39,245 nt of DNA, taken from contig JAFZWQ010000018.1 in NCBI GenBank assembly GCA_017617235.1, forward strand, positions 1 to 39,245. The letters are read 5' to 3'. Made by a program: the position numbers and the translations under genes. Under the pieces are notes generated by a model, which saw nothing but the letters and a program-made list of their open reading frames with translations, had not been told where the DNA came from and searched no databases. Positions within the stretch are counted from its first letter, which is position 1. The number at the start of each line of letters is the position of its first letter. Source of the stretch: Bacteroidaceae bacterium. GTDB lineage: Bacteria > Bacteroidota > Bacteroidia > Bacteroidales > Bacteroidaceae. Positions 7,122 to 18,949 of the stretch are shown piece by piece.

Positions 7122-8081
7122 TTATTTGGTTGATTTCTTGTTTCGTACCGCGTTCAGGAAGTCAACCATTTTTTGTAGATTTTCCTTACTGTACATGCCC
7201 ATGCCGTGACCGCCTTCGGGTACAAAGGTTGCTTGTGTGGTTACGCCGGCAGCCTTCAATTTTTCATAGAAACTCTTGCCTTGGCAACAGGGCACCACAT
7301 TATCACGTTCGCCATGGAAGATAATGATGGGTGGGTCATTGGCATCAATGTATGTAGTGGCGCTCAGACTCAGATACTTATCAGGTGATTCCGTTAGTTT
7401 TGCGTCGAGCAGGACGTCCTCGGGACTATTTGCACCCATCGTCATGTGGTCGCCACAATCCATTGCCATCAGGTCTATGGGACCGGACCAGTCGCAGGCA
7501 GCATTCACCCGACTGCTCTTTTTGGTAAAGGAACCCAGCGAGCCTTCCAGGTCAATATCGACAGTTCCCACCTGAGTCCGTTTTGTACCACTGGTAGTGG
7601 CAGTTATGGAGGCTAGGTGACCACCCGACGAGAATCCACTGGTGGCGATGAACGATTTGTCAAACTTATATTGTTTGGCCTTTCCGCGTACAAAGCGGAC
7701 TACAGCCTTGATGTCGTGAATCTGTGCCGGCCATTTGGCATCACCGCTGGAACGATGGTTGGGGCAAACAACTGCGTAACCGGCATCGAGCAGAGCTTTG
7801 ACGATGGTTCCCAAATCTGCAACTCCCTTACTGTTGTTGCTGAACCACGCGCTGCCATAAATATGAATGACAACGGGATAGGCTTTCTTCTTTTCCTTGG
7901 GCAGATAGATATCGCAGGTATGGTAGGCTTTGTCGTCGCCTGCATAGTTCACATCTTTCCATTCCTGGGAGGTTTCCAGTTTTGTCTGCATTTGGAATCC
8001 GCCGAAGCCGCCTGCGGGCTGTGCCTGTGCTGTTAACAAACCAAAGACTGTCAACAATCCGGTAAAAAGTGCTTTTTTCAT
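7122..8081 (-). CDS. Secreted alpha/beta-hydrolase, esterase (BD-FAE/COG0657-like)
   Basis: A 319-residue protein with a clear signal peptide (ends near AQAQ, residue 21). Start ATG at 8081; the frame is open further upstream but that part lies inside the next gene. The fold markers are an oxyanion region HIYGSAW (73-79), the nucleophile elbow GFSSG (Ser151), Asp260 in HGERD and His292 in GGHGMG. Such enzymes remove acetyl or feruloyl groups from plant polysaccharides in gut Bacteroidales; the substrate here is not shown. No clear promoter lies in the 46 bases before it, so it may be read from the upstream CcsBA-PBP4 transcript. Confidence 0.8.
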   Translation of the reverse strand: MKKALFTGLLTVFGLLTAQAQPAGGFGGFQMQTKLETSQEWKDVNYAGDDKAYHTCDIYLPKEKKKAYPVVIHIYGSAWFSNNSKGVADLGTIVKALLDAGYAVVCPNHRSSGDAKWPAQIHDIKAVVRFVRGKAKQYKFDKSFIATSGFSSGGHLASITATTSGTKRTQVGTVDIDLEGSLGSFTKKSSRVNAACDWSGPIDLMAMDCGDHMTMGANSPEDVLLDAKLTESPDKYLSLSATTYIDANDPPIIIFHGERDNVVPCCQGKSFYEKLKAAGVTTQATFVPEGGHGMGMYSKENLQKMVDFLNAVRNKKSTK

Positions 8082-8127
8082 ATTTGTATGGTTTAGAATT
8101 GTGCTAAAATTGCGGATGGAATCAGTA

Positions 8128-10416
8128 TTATTGGACGAGAATTCGACAAACCGCGTCTTGGAAAATGCGACTTTCGGCCACGGGGGAGTTCTCATTCACA
8201 ATGGCAAAAGCCATCCAATGTCCATCGCGCCCTTGGGCATATCCTGCGAGCGAGGATAACGCTTTGGTCGTGAGTGTTCCAGTTTTTACAAAGATTTTTC
8301 CTTGACAGGGGGAACCCGTCATGCGGTAAAGTAACGAACCGTAGCGAACGGGATGGCCAGGTGTAGCTAACGCCTCTTCGATGAAATAGTGACGTATGGG
8401 TTCGTCTGTCCAGGTATAGCGAAGCAGTTCGGTCAGAAAATGTGCCGAAAGCCGGTTGTCGGGCGATAGACCGCTACCATCGTTGATGACAAACTCGTTG
8501 TTGGGCGCTATCAGGTTGGCCTGTGCCTTCATGCATTCGGCAGGTGTAACGGATAGGAAAGGATAGCGGTTGCAGGTCTGTGCGATGTGATGGAACAGAG
8601 CGTCGGCCTTGATATTGCTGCTGTGGATAAGCATGGGAGTAACGACATCGGTCAGGGGTGTCTGGTGACGGAAGATGACGCGTTCTTCGCCCTCGCTCTG
8701 AATTGTGGACTCCTTCTTTACCGTAATTCCCTTGGCTGCCATCAGGTATCGGAGGTCTTGTTCGATGCGCTGACGCCCCTTTAGCAATATGGGTAGTTTG
8801 TTGTAGGGGATGTCCCAAGAAGCGGCTGTGGCATGGGCCTTCAGGGTGTCTTCGCGAGTCAGGTCGAACTGCAGGTCGCCATGAATCTGACGTATGCCTT
8901 GCTGCCGGATGGCATCCACTATGGGTTCGAGACTTTCCAGCATGGGGTCGTCATCGAGTTCGAAGCGGATGATGCCGTTGAACGTGTCGTCCTGCTGGTT
9001 CCCACAAACCACCACCCGACTGCTGTAGGCGTGGTCGATGCCCAAAAGATTCAGGGCGGTGACGGCTGTGAGCAGCTTCATACAGGAGGCTGTCGGCACT
9101 AAGCGATGGGCATTACGGCTGTAGAGCAGGGTATCGGAGTCTATGTCGTAAACCTCAATGGCGATGTCGGCCGTGTCTAACCGCAGCGACTGAGTGTAGA
9201 GACGGTCGAGTGCAGCAATGATGTGGTCTTGGTTGCCGGAAAATGAAGGTTGGGATGTGTTGACCTGTTCGATTGGTTCGGACGACTGGGTGTAGCTGTG
9301 CATGCCACCCAAATAGTTCACGCCAAAGTAGGTCATAATCAGCGAAGCCAGCGCAACAATCGAGTATATCCTGTAGTGACGTTTGGATTGGAACCAGGGC
9401 AGACTCTTTTGGTGCAGGGGCAGGCTGTATATGAATAAGGTAACCAGAGCCCAACTTTCTTTAGGGTCCCAACTCCAGTAGGTTCCCCACGATACATTGG
9501 CCCATACGGCCCCCAGGAAGATGCCGGTTGCCAACAGGAATACAGCAGGACGAAGCACATTGCGACGAACGATGCTGACGACCAACAGGATGTAACTAAG
9601 CAGAATGGTGCCCACGTGCAGGAAGAGGTATGGCGAACGCAGTACGGGTACCAGCGGCCGCATGCAAATGGCGATTACCATATACGATGCCATTGCCGTT
9701 CCGCAAACGGCTAGCACAATGGTGGGCAGCCACGATGCGGGTTTATCCTGATTGGCCTTTTGCTTCCGTTTTCTTAGGGATATCCATACCATGCTCAGGG
9801 CCAGTAACAGGTATCCGGCATATGTGATGGCCGTTCCCCATGGGTCGTAGCTGATGGTGAAGACGCTACCCGCCTCGTCATCGTCATAGGATGTCTGATA
9901 AATGCGATACCCCTTGACCTTACCGATGTTGTTCATCGAGATGGTGGTCTCCTCTTCACGGTCTTTGGTCGCAATCACCACTTGGCTGATGTAGTCGCTA
10001 GGCGTGGTTCCGTCGGCATCGTATGTAATATGGAAATCCTTGAGTGCCAAATAGAAAGGCATCTCCTGCATGATGGTATATGTCCCCTGTTCGTCTTTTA
10101 TCCAATAGGAACGGGTGGCCTCGCCTTCGCGCAGATGAAGCATTCCCTTCCGACTGGTGACATGCGTGGTGAGTGCCCCTGCCAGAATGAGCAACAGGCT
10201 GATGTGCAACGACAGGACGGATGGTCTTCTCCGCATTTTTTGTTTCCGAAGAAGCAAACAGCCAGTCAGCGCAGTCAACGCCCATAACATGATGAACCAC
10301 CATGCTCCGTAAATGTGTTGGTGCACATACAGCGTTCCCTGTCGGCTTTCAACGAACGTAGCCATGGCAATCACAATGGCCACGATTCCCAACAGGATGA
10401 AAGGCACTTTCTTCAT
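8128..10416 (-). CDS. Fusion of cytochrome c assembly protein CcsBA with a PBP4-type D,D-carboxypeptidase
   Basis: A single 762-residue frame joins two systems. Residues 1-215 are ResB/CcsB-like (membrane spans near 5-21, 38-56, 67-85 and 196-214 around an extracytoplasmic domain). Residues 229-375 are CcsA/ResC-like with the haem-binding WWD motif WGTYWSWDPKE (310-320), a His at 267 and the terminal His373 in GMHSY. A polar linker (376-398) follows. Residues about 398-762 are an S13 (DacB/PBP4) domain with all three active-site motifs: SCMK (Ser444, Lys447), SSN (599-601) and KTG (711-713), plus DGSGLS (646-651). CcsA normally ends just after HSY on the outer face, so the peptidase would lie in the periplasm without its own signal peptide. 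ATG at 10416 shares one base with the stop of the upstream gene (TAATG). Confidence 0.88.
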   Translation of the reverse strand: MKKVPFILLGIVAIVIAMATFVESRQGTLYVHQHIYGAWWFIMLWALTALTGCLLLRKQKMRRRPSVLSLHISLLLILAGALTTHVTSRKGMLHLREGEATRSYWIKDEQGTYTIMQEMPFYLALKDFHITYDADGTTPSDYISQVVIATKDREEETTISMNNIGKVKGYRIYQTSYDDDEAGSVFTISYDPWGTAITYAGYLLLALSMVWISLRKRKQKANQDKPASWLPTIVLAVCGTAMASYMVIAICMRPLVPVLRSPYLFLHVGTILLSYILLVVSIVRRNVLRPAVFLLATGIFLGAVWANVSWGTYWSWDPKESWALVTLFIYSLPLHQKSLPWFQSKRHYRIYSIVALASLIMTYFGVNYLGGMHSYTQSSEPIEQVNTSQPSFSGNQDHIIAALDRLYTQSLRLDTADIAIEVYDIDSDTLLYSRNAHRLVPTASCMKLLTAVTALNLLGIDHAYSSRVVVCGNQQDDTFNGIIRFELDDDPMLESLEPIVDAIRQQGIRQIHGDLQFDLTREDTLKAHATAASWDIPYNKLPILLKGRQRIEQDLRYLMAAKGITVKKESTIQSEGEERVIFRHQTPLTDVVTPMLIHSSNIKADALFHHIAQTCNRYPFLSVTPAECMKAQANLIAPNNEFVINDGSGLSPDNRLSAHFLTELLRYTWTDEPIRHYFIEEALATPGHPVRYGSLLYRMTGSPCQGKIFVKTGTLTTKALSSLAGYAQGRDGHWMAFAIVNENSPVAESRIFQDAVCRILVQ

Positions 10417-11555
10417 TATAATGCCCGATATTTCGGATTGTTGTTTTTGCGGACGGCGATGCACTCCATTTCTATGAGCCATGCAGGCCTGCATACGGGG
10501 GCCAGCGTGATGACGGTGGGAATGTCAGGGAAGCGTTCGCGGAACATCTCGCTCACCACCTCGTAGTCGCCTGTGTCTCGCAAGTAAACCACCAGGTGCA
10601 TGACGTCGCTGAACTCCATCCCTCCCTCGTGCAACAGGGCCTCCACATTCTCCCACATGCGTCGTGTCTGCTGACGGACATCACCCACATGCACCACCTC
10701 GCCGCGGTTGTTGATGCTGGCCGTGCCTGAAATCAGTACATGCGTACGGTCGCCATATTCCATGCAGGTGCCGCGTTCGAAGGTTACACCGTATTCATAG
10801 GTGGGGTTCAGGTGTGTCTTGGCATAGAGGTAACGCTGCTGTCCGGGCTCGAATCCCGTGATGGCATACGTTCCCATCTGCACAAGTGCCTTGGTGTCGG
10901 CCGGTCCGCCACCGATGCCTGTCGAGGCAATGTAGTGGGTCTCGGGTGTCAGTCCCTGCCGTTCGAAGTTCTCCCGTCTGGCCCGTACCATACCTGCATA
11001 CTGGGTATCGACATCGCGGACGAAGAACCACGTGCGCAGGCAGTTGCCGGCCAGTGTGGCACCGAACTTCCCGAGCAGCTCTTCGTACTGGTTCAACAGG
11101 GTCTCTGTCTGCTGGGCCGAATCGCCCTGGTTGCATACAAATCCCATGTGCCAGATATGGCGGTATCCGTTGCTGCTGGCCACCACGGTTCCATGTTCGG
11201 TGGTAATCTCTTGTCCGCTGGTCAGATAGAGCCAGACAGCCACCTTGGAACCGTCCAAAGGCTGTTGCTGGATGACGGAAAGGGCCACTTCGGGCTCTTG
11301 CCGCATGAGGGACTGCTGGTTGGTGCTGTCGGAAAGGAAGTATCGTTTCAGAATGTATCGTGCCCCCTCGAATCCTTCCATCCCGGGCAGGCGGTCCTCG
11401 GCTTCATAGATGCGATGGAGCTGGCCTTCGAAACCCTCGTGGCGCGAGTCGACGTGCAGCATCACGTGCCACTCGCCAACACCCTCCCTGGGGCAAAACG
11501 ATGCAACTTCAACACTTACTCCTAATTCCTCTATATATAGGGTCTTAAAATTCAT
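10416..11555 (-). CDS. Rid/YjgF-family protein, chorismatase-like
   Basis: A 379-residue cytoplasmic protein. The C-terminal third looks like a RidA/YjgF domain (ISGTASI, then a long helix and VVYLRDTGDY); the middle (NCLRTWFFVRDVD, ARRENF, ASTGIGG) resembles the FkbO/Hyg5 chorismatase group, which has the same tandem fold. Rid proteins hydrolyse reactive enamines and imines; chorismatases cleave chorismate to pyruvate and a diene or hydroxybenzoate. I cannot decide between them. The ATG at 11555 is preferred over a TTG nine bases earlier, which lies against the promoter. It is coupled to the CcsBA-PBP4 gene by a one-base overlap. Confidence 0.7.
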   Translation of the reverse strand: MNFKTLYIEELGVSVEVASFCPREGVGEWHVMLHVDSRHEGFEGQLHRIYEAEDRLPGMEGFEGARYILKRYFLSDSTNQQSLMRQEPEVALSVIQQQPLDGSKVAVWLYLTSGQEITTEHGTVVASSNGYRHIWHMGFVCNQGDSAQQTETLLNQYEELLGKFGATLAGNCLRTWFFVRDVDTQYAGMVRARRENFERQGLTPETHYIASTGIGGGPADTKALVQMGTYAITGFEPGQQRYLYAKTHLNPTYEYGVTFERGTCMEYGDRTHVLISGTASINNRGEVVHVGDVRQQTRRMWENVEALLHEGGMEFSDVMHLVVYLRDTGDYEVVSEMFRERFPDIPTVITLAPVCRPAWLIEMECIAVRKNNNPKYRAL

Positions 11556-11561
11556 AGCATG

Positions 11562-11569
11562 CAAAGATA
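11562..11569 (-). promoter_or_regulatory. -7 element TATCTTTG for the Rid-CcsBA-PBP4 operon
   Basis: TATCTTTG on the minus strand is followed by six bases and the ATG at 11555, implying a leader of at most a few bases. The -33 region is AT-rich with no clear TTTG at the usual distance. It separates this operon from the cytochrome lipoprotein gene that ends at 11611. Confidence 0.6.
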
Positions 11570-11591
11570 CAATAAATAAATCAAAATTTAA

Positions 11592-11636
11592 ATATTAAAA
11601 ATTAAAAATGTCAGTTTTCAATTTCCAATTTGTTTA
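11592..11636. repeat. AT-rich degenerate tract at the end of the cytochrome lipoprotein gene
   Basis: ATTAAAAATTAAAAATG-like units followed by TTTTCAATTTCCAATTTG. On the minus strand the latter codes for the last residues NKLEIEN of the cytochrome lipoprotein, much like the KLKIED end of the C11 peptidase. Confidence 0.7.
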
Positions 11637-12375
11637 TCCAGTCATCAATGAAGGTACGAACGGCAGAAACATCGTCCTTGAACTGACTGCTCAACACTTC
11701 GGTATGGTTGTAATGAAGAATCTCCTCACCGCCTTCTGCCAGTATCTGATGAATTAGCGACTGTGAAGCATTCCCGCTCACCACACGATACATGCCTTCC
11801 TTGCGAGTGCTGGGTATGTCAACGAGGTTGTGGTATGCTTTTCCCTCCGTCAGGTTCAGGTTGGCTGCCCCATTGCCCCCGTTGCCTCCGTGACACTGGA
11901 TACACGACTGGTTGAAGACGTTATGTTGGATAACGTTGAACATGCCGACGTCTACTGTTCCCACATTCAAAAGGATGGTGTCCGTCGTCTGGGTATAATC
12001 GTCCATTCGAACGCTGGCTAGGGTAATGACACGCTGTCGCAGACGGTTTATAATAGCCAGTTCCACTGTGCTGACATTGCTGCCTACGTTGGGCATAACT
12101 AAACTGATTAGGCTGCTGTCGTCCGTTTGGGGTAGAGCATAAGTCGTAAGGGCATAGCTATTCCCACTTTCGAAGGCTGCCAATGTGAGGGCGTATTTAT
12201 CCGAAAGGTCGGACATTCCTGAGACTATAGCTGCCAGTTTTACCGTATGGCCGTTAGTCTCTTGACTAATGGTTTTCTCCACGATGTCGCCAGAGTCACA
12301 CGATGAGAGAGAAAATAAAAGTGGAAAATGAAAAATGAAAAATTGAAAGAGTTTACGTTGCATGGCAGTATGCAT
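11611..12375 (-). CDS. c-type cytochrome lipoprotein (one CxxCH)
   Basis: A 254-residue lipoprotein: hydrophobic stretch (residues 9-24) and lipobox SLSSC, then a beta-rich domain and a single haem-attachment site CIQCH followed by GGNGGNGAANLNL, the form seen in planctomycete-type cytochrome c domains. It is probably an electron carrier on the outer membrane or periplasmic face. ATG at 12375 overlaps the porin stop by one base (TAATG); ATG at 12363 is an alternative. The hydrophobic part of the signal (FIFHFPLLFS) comes from an AT-rich repeat (12313-12350). It is the last gene of imelysin-DHOR-porin-cytochrome. Confidence 0.8.
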   Translation of the reverse strand: MHTAMQRKLFQFFIFHFPLLFSLSSCDSGDIVEKTISQETNGHTVKLAAIVSGMSDLSDKYALTLAAFESGNSYALTTYALPQTDDSSLISLVMPNVGSNVSTVELAIINRLRQRVITLASVRMDDYTQTTDTILLNVGTVDVGMFNVIQHNVFNQSCIQCHGGNGGNGAANLNLTEGKAYHNLVDIPSTRKEGMYRVVSGNASQSLIHQILAEGGEEILHYNHTEVLSSQFKDDVSAVRTFIDDWINKLEIEN

Positions 12376-13622
12376 TAAAAACTGAATTGAAGTTGCAGCG
12401 AGGCGTGATGGGTGCTTATACCCAGGTCATCGTTGTCGCGATCTAGCTGTGTTGCATGACCATATCTGCCTGTAAACTGGTACATAGCCGACAGTTTCAG
12501 GTGAACCTTCGGAATGTAGTAGTTGCAGACCACTGCAGGCATGTTCAGGAAGCCGTCCCTGCTGGTTCCATTGCGATCCATGAAATCGTAGCGCGCACCC
12601 AATTGTACCGCTTTGGTAACAAAATAGCCCAGTTGGGCATAGGCTCCCCAGTAATTGAATGTACGGTCGATTTTCATTCGATTTGTGAACCCAACGTGCA
12701 TCCAGTATGCTTCTGCTCCTACATACCAGCGGTTATATAACATCGAGAATTCGCCACCCAGACGGGCATCGTTGGTGCTTTCGCTTTCGCTCTCTACATT
12801 CAGTCCTCCACTCACACCGAATTGCATGTGCCGTCCCTTGAGCATGCGGCTGTTGCCTTGTGTCATGGGCATTTTGCCCCAAGGCATGAAGGTGAGTCTT
12901 CCTGCATACAGGAGTGAGGGAATGTGCCAATCATCGCTGAAAGTCTTCGTGGCACCGTTCACTACAGAACCGCTGCCGTTCCACAAGCCTGCCTCATAAC
13001 CTATGAGCCAGCTGTCCAACTTTTGGTTCAGTTTTGCAGTACCATGAAACTGGACACCCACATCGAAACCCGTGGCTATCTGTGGCGTTACGGCATTCAG
13101 CGTGTAGGGCATGATGGTGCTTGCCGTGAGCGAGGTTGGTACGATGGGAAAGAGCGTTTCACCCAAAGTGGTCAGGTAGGCGTGAGTGAAGGGAGTTTTG
13201 AACTTACCCACGCGAAAACGTGCGGCAGGACTGATGCTATAGTCAATCCACGCCTGCTGCAGGACATTAGCTCCCGTTGCCGCTGCATTGATGGAGAGGT
13301 TGTAATCCAGTTTGCCGAATGTCTTACCCGTGAAACCAAGTATTGCATAAGGAAGTGCAAAGCCAGAATTTGCTACATTGTCTTGATTATAGGCTTTGTC
13401 CAATCCCTCATCGTCGTAGTAATTTACCTGTCCGCGTGCCTGTAGCATCAGATAGGGCTTGAAGACAAATTTGCCGTTTTTCGATTGCAAGGTAAATCCA
13501 CGATTATCGGCAATACCCAGCACTCCATTTTCCATATCGATGCCCAGCGAATCCTGCGACATTGCATTGAAAATGAGAGATTGAGAAAATGAGAAAATGA
13601 GAAATAGAAAGATTCGTTTCAT
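12375..13622 (-). CDS. Outer-membrane porin, OprO/OprP-like
   Basis: A 415-residue beta-barrel with a signal peptide, the pattern of alternating hydrophobic strands, and a terminal aromatic residue (LQLQFSF) as used for outer-membrane insertion. Features typical of the phosphate-selective porin group: FKPYLMLQARGQ near the start, FRVGKFKTPFTHAY and a barrel ending in Phe. The solute is not shown; in this setting iron, haem or an organic acid complex is possible. The signal-peptide core (LFLIFSFSQSLIF) is encoded by a TTTTCTCATT repeat. It lies 16 bases after the di-haem oxidoreductase. Confidence 0.8.
   Translation of the reverse strand: MKRIFLFLIFSFSQSLIFNAMSQDSLGIDMENGVLGIADNRGFTLQSKNGKFVFKPYLMLQARGQVNYYDDEGLDKAYNQDNVANSGFALPYAILGFTGKTFGKLDYNLSINAAATGANVLQQAWIDYSISPAARFRVGKFKTPFTHAYLTTLGETLFPIVPTSLTASTIMPYTLNAVTPQIATGFDVGVQFHGTAKLNQKLDSWLIGYEAGLWNGSGSVVNGATKTFSDDWHIPSLLYAGRLTFMPWGKMPMTQGNSRMLKGRHMQFGVSGGLNVESESESTNDARLGGEFSMLYNRWYVGAEAYWMHVGFTNRMKIDRTFNYWGAYAQLGYFVTKAVQLGARYDFMDRNGTSRDGFLNMPAVVCNYYIPKVHLKLSAMYQFTGRYGHATQLDRDNDDLGISTHHASLQLQFSF
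13568..13612. repeat. TGAGAAAA tract in the porin signal peptide
   Basis: GAGAAAATGAGAAAATGAGA-like units with about 10-base spacing. The same unit, in a different reading phase, forms the signal peptide of the lipoprotein at 25812-26234 (tract 26156-26190). Confidence 0.7.
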
Positions 13623-13638
13623 TGTAAATTGTGAATTG

Positions 13639-15132
13639 TCAAAGAGATTTTAGGAATTTGATAAGTGCCGAGCGGTCGGACTTTGACATGCGGGCGAAGA
13701 GATTCTTTGATGCTTCTGCTTCGCCACCATGCCACATGATGGCTTCTGTAAAGTTACGTGCCCGTCCGTCGTGCAGAAAATAGGTATGTCCGTTTACTGT
13801 TTGCTGCAGTCCGATGCCCCACAACGGAGTGGTGCGCCATTCGTTGCCTCGGGCCAGACCGCTGACATAGTTGTCGTTCAGTCCCACACCCATAATTTCG
13901 CTGCCCATGTCGTGCAGCAGAAAGTCGCTGTAGGGGTGTATGGTCTGGTTGCCCAGCTGGGGCACTTCCGTTCCGTTCAGCAGTGTGGCGCCTCGTGGCT
14001 TGGTGTGTAGGGTAGTCACGTGACACAGGTGACACTTCGCCTCGAAAAACATCTGTTCGCCACGTTTCACCATGCTGTTGTTCACATTTCTTCGGGCAGG
14101 AACTCCCAAGGAATGTAAATACAGGTCCACGTTCTCCATATCCTCCGTTGAAATCTCCAACTGGTCGTATAGCAGACCCATCATCGAACCCTGCTGTATC
14201 TGCCTTTGTCCCTCGCAGATTTCCTCAGGATATCGGCTGTTGGTCACGCCCATATCGCTCGAAAATCCCAGTTCCACGGTCAGGTCGGCATGTTGGGCTT
14301 TGTTGCCAGAAAGTCCCAACTGCAATTGGCCGCGTTCGTTGATGTAGTTAGCACGTCCTGATATTCCATATTCTGGATAGTTCGAACGACGGGCCAGTTC
14401 TTCGATTTCGTTGCGGTCGATAGCCATCACCTGTCCCATACCCACATGACGGAGGGGAATCCTGACAGTACAGAATAGGTCTTCTGGACGGATGGGTTCG
14501 CCCGAGTCTCGATACGTTGGTTTGTACCAGTCGGTAATGGTATATTCGGGGTAAGCCAATTCATAGGATGTTCCGTCTGGGAACTGGAACTGCTGGGTGT
14601 GCCAGCGGCATTCCAATTTACCCTCTGCAGTTACTCCATAGATGCTTTGGTCGTGGATGACACGCCCATAGTCTTGGAAAAAGGCTCCGTTCTTGCGTGT
14701 CACATACACCAGCATCGACGAGAAACCATACGAACCGCTACCGTAGACAGGAGTGCCGTCTGGATCGGTGCCTGTCTGTGTCCACAGGGCTGGTTTCGTA
14801 CGTCCGGCATTGCGATGACACGAACCACAGGAATAGCCTGCATAGACAGGTCCCAGCCCGCCACCGTAGCTATTTCCGCTGGTACGTGCATCGTCATAGA
14901 GCTTGTCGCCACGGATGAATCGTCGTTTCAGGTCACCCGTCACCCAGTCGGCTTCCGTGTCGTAGGCAAACGACGAACTGCTGTAAATGGTGGATGTTCC
15001 TGCCGACAGGGCGTAACCCTTGGGAATAGTCAAATCGCTCTCGCCTATGCCTTCGTCATCAGAACAGCCAACGACGGCCATTACTATGACCGTCGTCAGC
15101 ACCATTTTCAGATAGTGTCTCACACTTATCAT
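13639..15132 (-). CDS. Di-haem oxidoreductase lipoprotein (COG3488, DHOR)
   Basis: A 497-residue lipoprotein (lipobox VVGC, Cys23) with two covalent haem sites, CGSCH (102-106) and CHLCH (367-371), and the family tail EWRTTPLWGIGL followed by FLHDGRARNFTEAI. COG3488 proteins were named thiol oxidoreductases but are related to di-haem peroxidases; their substrate is not settled. They are often encoded next to imelysins, as here (three bases after the imelysin stop). Haem attachment would need a Ccs system, which lies about 3 kb downstream. It probably acts on the periplasmic or outer membrane surface in iron or redox metabolism. Confidence 0.88.
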   Translation of the reverse strand: MISVRHYLKMVLTTVIVMAVVGCSDDEGIGESDLTIPKGYALSAGTSTIYSSSSFAYDTEADWVTGDLKRRFIRGDKLYDDARTSGNSYGGGLGPVYAGYSCGSCHRNAGRTKPALWTQTGTDPDGTPVYGSGSYGFSSMLVYVTRKNGAFFQDYGRVIHDQSIYGVTAEGKLECRWHTQQFQFPDGTSYELAYPEYTITDWYKPTYRDSGEPIRPEDLFCTVRIPLRHVGMGQVMAIDRNEIEELARRSNYPEYGISGRANYINERGQLQLGLSGNKAQHADLTVELGFSSDMGVTNSRYPEEICEGQRQIQQGSMMGLLYDQLEISTEDMENVDLYLHSLGVPARRNVNNSMVKRGEQMFFEAKCHLCHVTTLHTKPRGATLLNGTEVPQLGNQTIHPYSDFLLHDMGSEIMGVGLNDNYVSGLARGNEWRTTPLWGIGLQQTVNGHTYFLHDGRARNFTEAIMWHGGEAEASKNLFARMSKSDRSALIKFLKSL

Positions 15133-15135
15133 TTT

Positions 15136-16311
15136 TTACTCTTCTTCGTCGCTTTCGATATCATGACTCAGGAATAAATCCTTATAGGCTTTTCCACCCT
15201 CGTAGCTCTTGGTCCATGCATTGTAGAGTTCCGTTGCATCCTGTTGCAGCAGTTTTCCCACTTGCACCATATAGTTGCCCCAACTTTGTGCATTGGCTGT
15301 GGTGTAGTCCAGATTAGCTGCATCGGTGCTGGTTCCTCCATTGATGGTGCGAGTCTGTCCGTCCTTGAAGATGAGGAACTCCATCGTGTGGAACCCACGA
15401 ACACCCTGTTTGGCCTCTACAGTCTCGTCGTCATCGCCGTCGCCCCATATCATATTGTCAAACTCTCCAGAGTTCAGAATGTTCACGATGGCTTCCTGAT
15501 CCAGAGGCCATGAGTCCATGTTGGGGTCGAGTCCCAGTGCATCTACAGGCCCAAAGAGGAAAGCCTCGCTCGTTTCCCACGGGGTACGGGCTTCGAGCCA
15601 TGCGTTGCAGCATTTCTGGAAATTCTCGTCCGATGGTGCTGTGGCAAAAGTCTTTGCAGTTTCGTAAAGGGCAGTATTCTTTTCCATCAGTTCCTTGTAG
15701 GTGGGCAATACCACATCGTTGACGTAAGTTACCAAGATGGGCTGCAGAACTTCGTCGCTGTTCACAGCTTCGTTACGCTGCAGGTAAGCCTTCAGCGATT
15801 TCAGCGTTTCCTCCAGCTCATTACAAGCCTCCACGGCTATCGTTACTTGGAGTGCATTGATGTTGTTGCGGAAGGGGGCAGGAATATTCAAAATAGTCTG
15901 GTGTGCCTTCTGGATAGCATCGTCTACCGTCTGGAACAATTCCGCATTATTCCCTTTCAACAAGGTGGCCAGCGAGTTGGCGGCAATCTGTCCGTTACGT
16001 GTGCCATAGAAGGCATTGCGGATGGACAGGATGTTGTTCGAGTAGTCCTCGCGACTATGCCAGCTGTACCACGATTCCACAGCATACAGCGCCTTTGTCT
16101 GTTCGCCGTTGTTCCACAGGTCCAGCGGGTCGCCAATCTTGGCATTGCCCACCTCGTTGGCAATGTCCATACATCCGTCGATAATCTGTTCTACACTCAC
16201 CAATGCGGGTTGTGCATCGTCGTCCCCACCGTTGTAGGGAGTTGGGTCGTCGTTACCACAGGCTGCGAAAGCCATTGTGCCCATCACGAGGGCCATTGTC
16301 TTGATATTCAT
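15136..16311 (-). CDS. Imelysin-family lipoprotein (M75, EfeO/IrpA-like)
   Basis: A 391-residue lipoprotein (lipobox AFAAC, Cys18) of the imelysin superfamily, associated with iron uptake. The signature GxHxxE is present as GFHTME (Gly306, His308, Glu311), and WLEARTPWETSEAFLFGP (238-255) is the other conserved region. An Asp/Glu-rich stretch (WGDGDDDETVEAKQ) precedes the signature and the C-terminus ends in ESDEEE, both of which could bind metal. These proteins were first called peptidases but most have no shown peptidase activity. It starts the tight imelysin-DHOR-porin-cytochrome group. Confidence 0.88.
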   Translation of the reverse strand: MNIKTMALVMGTMAFAACGNDDPTPYNGGDDDAQPALVSVEQIIDGCMDIANEVGNAKIGDPLDLWNNGEQTKALYAVESWYSWHSREDYSNNILSIRNAFYGTRNGQIAANSLATLLKGNNAELFQTVDDAIQKAHQTILNIPAPFRNNINALQVTIAVEACNELEETLKSLKAYLQRNEAVNSDEVLQPILVTYVNDVVLPTYKELMEKNTALYETAKTFATAPSDENFQKCCNAWLEARTPWETSEAFLFGPVDALGLDPNMDSWPLDQEAIVNILNSGEFDNMIWGDGDDDETVEAKQGVRGFHTMEFLIFKDGQTRTINGGTSTDAANLDYTTANAQSWGNYMVQVGKLLQQDATELYNAWTKSYEGGKAYKDLFLSHDIESDEEE

Positions 16312-16447: not shown

Positions 16448-17764
16448 TCATTTTCTCCAGAACCATCCCGTGTAGGCAATGGACAGCGAAAACTCGTTCT
16501 CGCGATTGTAGCGTCCACCTCCAAAGACGCGTTGTGTGCCTATGCGACGGGTGTTCCAGTCGGCCTTTACCACCAGATAGGGCAATGGGAAATAATTGAC
16601 ACCGCCTACCCACTTGCTTACCTGACAGCGGGCATCCATCGTCTGTCCGGCTTCGCCTTTCTGTTGGGGATTAAAGTATTCATAGCGGGCAAAGGGATAG
16701 AGCACGGGCATGTGTTTCTTGCGAATCAGCGCCTTCATATTCAGTCCTGCTTCCACACCATATGCTAAAGCGTTTTGGGCAATGCGATGCATGGCTCCGT
16801 GGTGGTAGTTCGATTTGTTCGACAAGTTAACGGCACTCATGGCACGGGCATTCTGCAGTTGTCCCCAAATGATGTTGGCGCGTGCCGTTACATATTTATT
16901 GCGATACTGGGCATCGGCATTCAGTATATTCAGATGCGAACGTCCGACACTCGAATATTTATAGCGTTTGTCGGCATTGGCCGTAACGTCGTTACAGAAG
17001 TAGTACGATGTACCCAGTCGCAATCCGGGGATACCTGCGTATTCCAGTCGCGCGGTGTAGGCAGGACTGGTAAAGTTGTCTGTCTCAAACAGCCCTTGCT
17101 TGCCATCGGCTACCCAGTGGTCGCGTCCAAAGCCATCGGCATTCAAACCAGCTGTCACGTAGGCTTCGTACGACAGTTTCGAATAGCCCTTGCCTACGCT
17201 TCCGAACAAGGAAACACCCGTTTCGTGCCACGTGCTGGGCAGTATGGTGGTTTCGCTTTCGGGTCGGACGGTTCCGAAGAACAGGATGGGTTCGTGGTGG
17301 GCGTTAGTCAGTCCCACGGGCAGCACCATGTGACCCACCCTTACGTTGAACGTCCGATTATAGGTATAGGTCAGGTGAAACTGCTCCAGAGCTACTTCGC
17401 CGCCCTTTTCCATTTCCGTCTCGTATTCGCCATTCTCCGAGGCTTCCATCTCTGTTTCCACACCTACGCCACCAGCTTCGAACTCAATTTCGGCACCCAG
17501 GTTCCAATGTTTATTGAACCTGTAGTCGCCAGCGACGACGAAACGCGGAATTGCGATGCTGTTGCGACGTTCGTAGGTGTTGCCCGTTGTGGTGCCGTTG
17601 AAACGACTGGTACCATATCCCATGAACGAGGCCAGCACTTCACCATATCCGCCAATACGGAACTTCTGGTATTCGGCTACCTGGGTGGAATCTTTATTCA
17701 CTTTGGCAACGGCCAATCCGGTCGTTCCCATCAGCAATATCAATGTCAGTAATGCTTTTTTCAT
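16448..17764 (-). CDS. Outer-membrane porin of the iron/cytochrome locus
   Basis: A 438-residue beta-barrel with a signal peptide ending near LAVAK (residue 20). The start is ATG at 17764; an earlier in-frame start at 17818 would add 18 basic residues before the signal and overlap the promoter. It opens with FRIGGYGEV, then shows repeated amphipathic strands such as FNVRVGHMVLPVGLTN, as in OprO/OprP-like or Bacteroidetes porins. An acidic loop (EMEASENGEYETEMEKGGE, about 107-125) could attract cations. It is the gene next to the divergent RIC-LuxR regulator and so its most likely direct target. Confidence 0.78.
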   Translation of the reverse strand: MKKALLTLILLMGTTGLAVAKVNKDSTQVAEYQKFRIGGYGEVLASFMGYGTSRFNGTTTGNTYERRNSIAIPRFVVAGDYRFNKHWNLGAEIEFEAGGVGVETEMEASENGEYETEMEKGGEVALEQFHLTYTYNRTFNVRVGHMVLPVGLTNAHHEPILFFGTVRPESETTILPSTWHETGVSLFGSVGKGYSKLSYEAYVTAGLNADGFGRDHWVADGKQGLFETDNFTSPAYTARLEYAGIPGLRLGTSYYFCNDVTANADKRYKYSSVGRSHLNILNADAQYRNKYVTARANIIWGQLQNARAMSAVNLSNKSNYHHGAMHRIAQNALAYGVEAGLNMKALIRKKHMPVLYPFARYEYFNPQQKGEAGQTMDARCQVSKWVGGVNYFPLPYLVVKADWNTRRIGTQRVFGGGRYNRENEFSLSIAYTGWFWRK

Positions 17765-17995: not shown

Positions 17996-18949
17996 ATGAA
18001 ACGAATGAAATTGTACGAGGCCGAGGATAAGATGATAGACCTCATCAGCGACAACCACAGTATGTTGCAGGGCCTGGGTGCCTTCGGAATCCGCCTGGGG
18101 TTTGGCGACAAAACTGTCAGCGAGATTTGCCACGAACAGGGTGTCGACTGTTACACCTTTCTTACCGTTGTGAACTTTCTGATAAACGGATATACTCCCA
18201 AGGAGACGGACGACAAGATTTCCGTGCAGACGTTGCTCGACTATCTGCGTGCCTCGCATCGCTATTTTCTGGACTTCCAGTTGCCTTCCATCCGCAAGAA
18301 ACTGGAGGAATCCCTCAGCCAGAGCGATAAGCTCGTAGTGCTGATACTGCGTCTCTACGACGAATATGCCCACGACATCCGTCTGCACATGAAGTACGAG
18401 GAGAAGACGCTGTTCCCATACGTCGAGGCCCTGCTCAAAGGGGAACAGAAGACAGACTACAATGTCGATATTTTCTCGAAACACCACAGTGACACGACGG
18501 GTAAGTTCCACGAACTGAAGAATATCATCATCAAATACCTGCCTCACGACGGATTGGCCAACAACCAGTTGACGGCCACCCTCTTCGATATTTACAACAA
18601 CGAGGAATGGCTCTCGAACCACAGCAATGTCGAGGAGGTGCTGTTCGTGCCCGCCATACGTATTCTGGAACAGCAACTGAAGACCGACGATGTGTCTGCT
18701 CGCATTTCCAACATGATTAGCAATGCCGACAGCCAGGAGGCCATCTCCGAACGCGAGAAGGAGATTATCATGTGCCTGGTACAGGGCATGTCGAACAAGG
18801 AAATTGCCAACCAACTATTCATTTCCGTCAACACCGTCATCACCCATCGCCGCAATATCGTCCGCAAGTTGCAAATCCATTCGCTTGCTGGCCTCACCAT
18901 CTACGCCATTGCCAACAACCTCATAGACAAGCGTTGTTTCACGGCGTAA
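17996..18949 (+). CDS. RIC/YtfE-like di-iron (hemerythrin-type) sensor fused to a LuxR-type HTH
   Basis: A 317-residue regulator. Residues about 25-65 resemble the N-terminal ScdA/YtfE domain (GFGDKTVSEIC), with Cys45 and Cys52 but not the double Cys of YtfE. Residues 80-225 are a hemerythrin-type four-helix domain with likely iron ligands His88, His131, Glu135, His163 or His164, His209 and Glu213. Their spacing matches the E. coli YtfE ligands as I recall them (84, 129, 133, 160, 204, 208). Residues 250-310 are a LuxR/GerE helix-turn-helix (ISEREKEII, SNKEIANQLFIS, NTVITHRRNIVRKL). It would sense oxygen, NO or iron and control transcription, most simply of the divergent porin/iron locus. Confidence 0.88.
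   Translation: MKRMKLYEAEDKMIDLISDNHSMLQGLGAFGIRLGFGDKTVSEICHEQGVDCYTFLTVVNFLINGYTPKETDDKISVQTLLDYLRASHRYFLDFQLPSIRKKLEESLSQSDKLVVLILRLYDEYAHDIRLHMKYEEKTLFPYVEALLKGEQKTDYNVDIFSKHHSDTTGKFHELKNIIIKYLPHDGLANNQLTATLFDIYNNEEWLSNHSNVEEVLFVPAIRILEQQLKTDDVSARISNMISNADSQEAISEREKEIIMCLVQGMSNKEIANQLFISVNTVITHRRNIVRKLQIHSLAGLTIYAIANNLIDKRCFTA

Follow-up and report, generated by a model that had tools for sequence, protein, structure and literature searches.

The window analysed here, the whole stretch of 39,245 nucleotides (positions 1-39,245) of contig JAFZWQ010000018.1, comes from assembly GCA_017617235.1 of a Bacteroidaceae bacterium, a genome of 85.5% completeness in 50 contigs. On its minus strand lies a fused ccsBA-pbp4 gene (8128..10416) of 762 codons plus a stop. 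Its ATG at 10416 overlaps the end of a Rid-like gene, and the frame runs to the stop at 8128-8130 with no internal stop. Three Pfam families follow one another along the 762-residue protein, ResB (79 bits, cut-off 24.6), Cytochrom_C_asm (88 bits, cut-off 29.9) and Peptidase_S13 (PF02113; 166.8 bits, cut-off 22.8), and all three scores are far beyond chance. The open frame, the three families and the presence of every named motif bear out an earlier sequence-only reading, in which one frame carries CcsBA together with a PBP4/S13 peptidase. The same reading called both halves complete-looking. This holds for their motifs but overstates the case for CcsBA, which scores 98.5 bits against a cut-off of 187.6 for the NCBIfam equivalog TIGR03144 (cytochr_II_ccsB) and lacks large parts of the CcsBA of PDB entry 7s9y.

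A second PBP4-like gene, at 28% identity, lies elsewhere in the source genome. A scan of positions 8000-11700 found 3 promoters and 1 terminator, against 3.3 and 2.9 in shuffled sequence, and no promoter-like site of the type scanned inside the fusion. A plasmid-borne or mobile origin was considered and rejected: 72,556 plasmid records held no near match, and at the protein level zero records had a single place covering 80% of the query.

The two halves of the fused protein

The CcsB (ResB-like) half (residues 1-218; 9763..10416, minus strand) was delimited by the Pfam ResB match at residues 63-185, by alignment to 7s9y and 25vk and by hydropathy. It consists of three helices, a periplasmic domain with a beta-cap region (approximately residues 88-192) and a fourth helix. 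The CcsA half (residues 219-375; 9292..9762, minus strand) is marked by the periplasmic histidine (P-His) H267, the WWD motif, the membrane histidine H335 and the P-His H373. The WWD motif, WGTYWSWDPKE, begins at residue 310 (9457-9489), and the terminal HSY contains H373. The membrane histidines H71 (in CcsB) and H335 (in CcsA) align with histidines of 7s9y, and the periplasmic H267 and H373 align with their 7s9y counterparts. The naming of H71, H267, H335 and H373 as haem ligands is based on the haem-ligand numbers of the 7s9y histidines, which we take as given. The available part of PMC10663686 describes two membrane histidines in CcsBA, one each in CcsB and CcsA, as well as a conserved Phe and Tyr in the CcsB beta cap. 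In the fused protein F128 lies opposite Phe240, and Tyr132 is one place off Tyr245 in the alignment.

The fusion shares with the Helicobacter hepaticus CcsBA of 7s9y the four haem-ligand histidines, the WWD motif, the first periplasmic domain of CcsB and the single chain. The two differ in length, 378 residues in the CcsBA half versus 942 in 7s9y, and only the fusion has a peptidase at its C-terminus. In the alignment, residues ~114-230 and ~332-747 of 7s9y have no counterpart in the fused protein, and hydropathy gives no sign of an extended loop separating the fourth helix from the WWD loop. Fused CcsBA proteins have been described with a second periplasmic domain, PD2 (PMC10663686, section 10). 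No PD2 was found in the fused protein by the 7s9y alignment and hydropathy, so the CcsBA half is classed as a compact variant. The best PDB sequence match, the 828-residue CcsA of 25vk (3.4e-59), has its parts in the same order; unlike the fusion it has a longer middle part, and the match stops at its residue 778 of 828 with no peptidase matched. The compact form is not peculiar to the window. In 80 named loci whole ccsBA frames span 344-830 residues (the broken rows L071, L089 and L122 left out), and 12 of the 80 (L063-L068, L070 and L075-L079) hold compact proteins that, at 344-405 residues, are roughly half as long as most others. Judged from these features, the CcsBA half is most likely a system II cytochrome c synthase with a predicted role in haem attachment.

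The PBP4 (peptidase S13) domain (residues 396-762; 8131..9231, minus strand) carries its motifs in the order SCMK from S444, SSN from S599 and KTG from K711. It scores 123.4 for TIGR00666, above the cut-off of 107.8, and 100.6 for the narrower PRK11113, below the threshold of 527. The last ~360 residues align with PBP4 enzymes of solved structure, and the order SxxK, SxN, KTG is that of the S13 family members PBP4, DacB and DacC (1w5d, 2ex2). Unlike those enzymes, the fused PBP4 has no signal sequence of its own and is tethered to a polytopic membrane protein. The domain is also compact: between SxxK and SxN it is ~90 residues shorter than Bacillus subtilis PBP4a (1w5d), a segment of ~20 residues taking the place of ~110 there. 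Hydropathy of residues 376-438, together with inspection of the joint by eye, revealed no export signal or anchor belonging to the PBP4 half. The half is most likely a DD-peptidase, predicted to trim peptidoglycan peptides near the inner membrane.

Hydropathy predicts membrane helices at about residues 4-22, 38-56, 66-84, 196-214, 233-251, 265-283, 287-305 and 353-371, and a further helix at ~322-340, below the hydropathy threshold, is assumed from homology. Basic loops occur at residues 57-65 and 215-232. Placing these loops inside would put the CcsA end and the PBP4 domain outside, as PBP4 requires, and the hydropathy profile thus points to a periplasmic peptidase.

The joint and the separate genes of relatives

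The joint and linker (residues 376-395; 9232..9291, minus strand) were delimited by comparison with relatives in which the two genes adjoin. At the place of 9232-9291 these relatives have a ccsBA stop followed by the basic N-terminus and the membrane helix of PBP4. In all the ccsBA ends compared, the stop comes directly or 1-2 codons after the residue following HSY, which confirms the earlier placement of the joint at the normal end of CcsA. Of 36 free PBP4 frames, 35 have a basic stretch of type KKKRRRLKKSVRRGC at the N-terminus. In all 23 rows whose assigned start included the stretch, the next feature is a membrane helix that lacks a lipobox; rows with an assigned start behind the basic motif are left out of the 23. 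This stretch is strikingly constant, though the free PBP4s are only ~35-60% identical to the PBP4 of the fusion.

The fusion lacks the ccsBA stop, the basic stretch and the PBP4 membrane helix, and it keeps a hydrophilic linker of ~20 residues between the CcsA end and the PBP4 domain. Inspection by eye of all three minus-strand frames at the joint found no relic of the PBP4 anchor, and a frameshift relic was rejected since the other frames hold nothing of the kind. Because the basic N-terminus and helix of free PBP4 are missing, the last helix of CcsA would serve as the anchor. A working fusion needs the loss of just the stop and the anchor, and exactly these parts are absent. These data fit the earlier suggestion that CcsBA acts simply as a membrane anchor, given that the free orthologues have a basic N-terminus and helix of their own.

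An unbroken match over residues 1-762 occurred only in the source genome among the matches listed for 418 family and genus genomes (a family sample of 301 and a genus sample of 139, with 22 common to both). When residues 290-560 were used as a joint query, there was no other unbroken match among the matches listed for 393 order genomes or for 395 phylum genomes; some genomes occur in more than one of the genus, family, order and phylum samples. In a named genome collection, none of the best 80 of 587 relatives was fused. Several candidates were examined and rejected. Four loci with matches spanning nearly the whole query (L063, L068, L069 and L074) have two separate genes each, ccsBA stops just after HSY in the long frames of G010, G359 and G311, and a 729-residue frame at G031 (L027) consists of an open stretch without a ccsBA match followed by a PBP4 that has its own N-terminus. 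For frames of ~1,000-1,100 residues in other families, the matches listed end at the CcsA end. A conserved system was likewise rejected, as no second fusion was present among the matches listed in the genus, family, order and phylum samples; the idea that the domain pair might recur across Bacteroidales thus found no support. The sequence-only reading had also taken separate genes with a stop at the joint in close relatives as a sign against the fusion. Such genes were indeed found, but they do not imply an artefact and instead show where the fusion came from. Since the close relatives examined keep the genes separate, the data argue for a local gene fusion and not a conserved new system.

Gene order was tallied in 60 regions picked from the best matches and not at random: 41 with ccsBA, 9 with Rid and PBP4 without ccsBA, and 10 with PBP4 only. 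A separate PBP4 lies directly after ccsBA on the same strand in 11 of the 41 loci; in 26 no PBP4 follows, in 3 it is on the opposite strand within 5 kb, and for 1 the end is out of view. Where ccsBA is absent, PBP4 directly follows Rid in 6 of the 9 regions. In 10 measured pairs, with starts picked by eye, the PBP4 start lies -8 to +41 bases from the ccsBA stop; in G399 both are in one frame, separated by 12 bases. Three loci, L165 (G078), L166 (G316) and L167 (G349), have no ccsBA between Rid and PBP4, and elsewhere these genomes have separate frames that match ccsB and ccsA distantly. In G383, Rid-ccsBA and Rid-PBP4 lie on different contigs; its two Rid copies (L145, L164) could reflect duplication or mixed strains.

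The order DHOR, porin, cytochrome, Rid, ccsBA is found in 26 of the 41 ccsBA loci, with imelysin in front in 22. Among the 15 loci without the whole upstream cluster, 9 have less than 5 kb upstream in the fetched stretch, G405 lacks Rid, and the remaining 5 have Rid but no cytochrome genes. The window has the same order as the 26, which speaks against a misjoined contig. This bears on the possibility of an error of assembly or binning that merged two genes. The fusion is known from one incomplete, fragmented genome and from no other among the matches listed, as such an error would produce. Against this, the reading frame continues across the joint, precisely the stop and the anchor are missing while the hydrophilic linker remains, the surrounding gene order is that of relatives, and GC content is even across the joint (0.55, 0.53 and 0.53 in successive windows). 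An assembly error is therefore unlikely.

Trees were built from loci with a complete ORF in the length range, giving 39 ccsBA rows and 37 PBP4 rows with the fusion halves included. In the ccsBA tree the fusion falls in an unresolved group of ten rows (support 89/91). None of its nine group-mates has a PBP4 adjoining ccsBA, and in two of them, G383 and G407, the PBP4 orthologue is on another contig. The adjacent pairs of G399, G347, G322 and G324 form a neighbouring ccsBA group (88/93) at the same unresolved fork. Adjoining genes are thus confined to other groups within the genus, and any order of loss, retention and fusion is a tentative reconstruction. The PBP4 tree groups the fusion with G399, G316, G383 and G407 (92/91, unresolved).

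The trees also bear on whether the fusion is a by-product of deletion in a decaying gene, with one half no longer working. The end branch of the fused PBP4 is long (0.5 versus a median of 0.2; 0.48 in its neighbour G399), and the CcsA end has one residue fewer ahead of the last GGMHSY than the relatives' ends compared, both of which would suit decay. For ccsBA the branch has the median length. No catalytic or haem-ligand residue has been lost, and differences by codon position resemble those between free relatives: 0.23/0.11/0.53 versus 0.22/0.13/0.49 for the ccsBA half and 0.30/0.22/0.57 versus 0.34/0.25/0.55 for the PBP4 half, in a comparison where about one codon in two differs at its third position. 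On this evidence neither half looks decayed, and we consider a decaying gene very unlikely.

Neighbouring genes and iron

Directly upstream of the fusion is the Rid or FkbO-Hyg5 chorismatase-like gene (10416..11564, minus strand); a Rid-like gene is found near ccsBA in 39 of the 41 relatives' loci. Further upstream, on the same strand, lie a probable small c-type cytochrome with one CxxCH, CIQCH (11611..12375; Cytochrome_CBB3 at 20.3 bits, below the cut-off of 27), a Porin_O_P outer-membrane porin (12375..13622; Pfam), a DHOR di-haem oxidoreductase with two CxxCH (13639..15132; Pfam and motif) and an imelysin of the peptidase M75 family (15136..16311; Pfam). Upstream of the imelysin, 16448-17764 encodes a 438-residue protein without a Pfam match that appears outer-membrane-like by eye. 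At the far end of the cluster and divergent from it, a LuxR-type regulator with a hemerythrin domain (17996-18949) is a candidate oxygen or iron sensor. Downstream of the fusion lies a BD-FAE esterase (7122-8081), with no match in the relatives' regions searched.

DHOR and the small cytochrome are likely clients of CcsBA. The fusion is the sole gene found above the Cytochrom_C_asm cut-off in the source genome (85.5% complete) and both proteins carry CxxCH; for these reasons it probably matures the two, if the genome makes c-type cytochromes. This argument is weakened by five loci (G095, G208, G357, G358 and G400) in which Rid is present with no cytochrome genes in 5.9-7.6 kb.

A possible role in iron acquisition is suggested by comparison with described loci. 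According to the available part of PMC10434189, B. thetaiotaomicron BT2473-BT2482 encodes a fimbrillin, CcsA, hypothetical proteins, a porin, a thiol oxidoreductase, an M75 peptidase and an HTH regulator, and is upregulated in low iron by 62.7- to 323.7-fold in its table and 69.4- to 323.7-fold in its text. Compared by annotation only, this locus and the window share the order regulator, M75 peptidase, oxidoreductase, porin, hypothetical protein, CcsA. They differ in that the same part of PMC10434189 names neither PBP4 nor a Rid-like protein, and in the regulator, which is of HTH type there and LuxR-type with a hemerythrin domain in the window. Imelysins and di-haem peroxidases have been tied to iron uptake in the portion of PMC3143127 available; the EfeUOB/imelysin operons it describes resemble the window in placing imelysin beside a di-haem peroxidase, and differ in that CcsBA or PBP4 is not named there. 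By analogy of annotation, the window locus may answer to iron.

Coupling between the fused halves is possible in principle: the fusion might have been selected because wall trimming beside the site of haem attachment aids the assembly or export of iron-uptake cytochromes. PBP4 directly follows ccsBA in 11 of 41 loci and Rid in 6 of 9, in keeping with such a role, although these counts were not set against chance. The fused CcsBA leaves no room for PD2, and the PBP4 domain starts ~20 residues past the P-His2 loop, which the available part of PMC10663686 describes as mobile. On the other hand, PBP4 does not adjoin ccsBA in 26 of the 41 loci and is on the opposite strand in 3, with the end of 1 unseen, PBP4 remains beside Rid where ccsBA is missing, and compact CcsBA also occurs in relatives without the fusion. 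We regard selection for coupling as doubtful. The earlier proposal that the fusion ties wall trimming to redox state has only gene neighbourhood in its favour, and the matches listed for 139 genus genomes include no further fusion. In a further version, PBP4 on the mobile P-His2 loop would partly take the place of PD2 over the active site, making one machine for cytochrome maturation and local wall opening under iron starvation; this is highly improbable.

Origin and significance

No description of a ccsBA-PBP4 fusion was found among the papers listed from an open-access full-text library, as judged by title and the start of the abstract. StoA is related to the cytochrome-maturation protein ResA and is linked to cytochrome c maturation. 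In Bacillus subtilis, dacB presumably lies in the neighbourhood of resABC. The part of PMC3097244 available is silent on that neighbourhood, which is consequently not counted as evidence. The claim that no link between the two systems had been described was not quite right, since reference titles in PMC3906833 name the penicillin-binding protein SpoVD as the target of the thiol-disulphide oxidoreductase StoA.

The data are best explained by a real, lineage-specific fusion of neighbouring genes in which one membrane anchor was swapped for another, and we consider this probable. The ancestor would have carried Rid, ccsBA and pbp4 in this order, ccsBA and pbp4 being near neighbours on the same strand. 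A joint loss of the stop that ended ccsBA and of PBP4's N-terminal signal anchor would have left the last helix of CcsA, ending outside the membrane just before H373, to carry the peptidase into the periplasm. Each half has most likely kept its former job. CcsBA would move haem out and attach it to the cytochromes of the locus, putatively the small cytochrome and the di-haem peroxidase; the locus itself looks like one for uptake under iron starvation. The tethered PBP4 would trim peptidoglycan peptides near the inner membrane. Interpretation is complicated by the fact that a single genome, 85.5% complete in 50 contigs, has the fusion. An origin from genes lying side by side is further challenged by the possibility that PBP4 rejoined ccsBA from elsewhere, as hinted by the separate contigs of G383.

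The fusion therefore looks genuine, though it is so far a single case, and is best read as the merging of two ordinary neighbouring genes in which one anchor replaced another. Other species of the genus still have its likely parts as separate adjacent genes, which makes it possible to follow how a gene pair became a fusion. The more general question is posed by the repeated presence of a small PBP4 in this iron-starvation-like locus.
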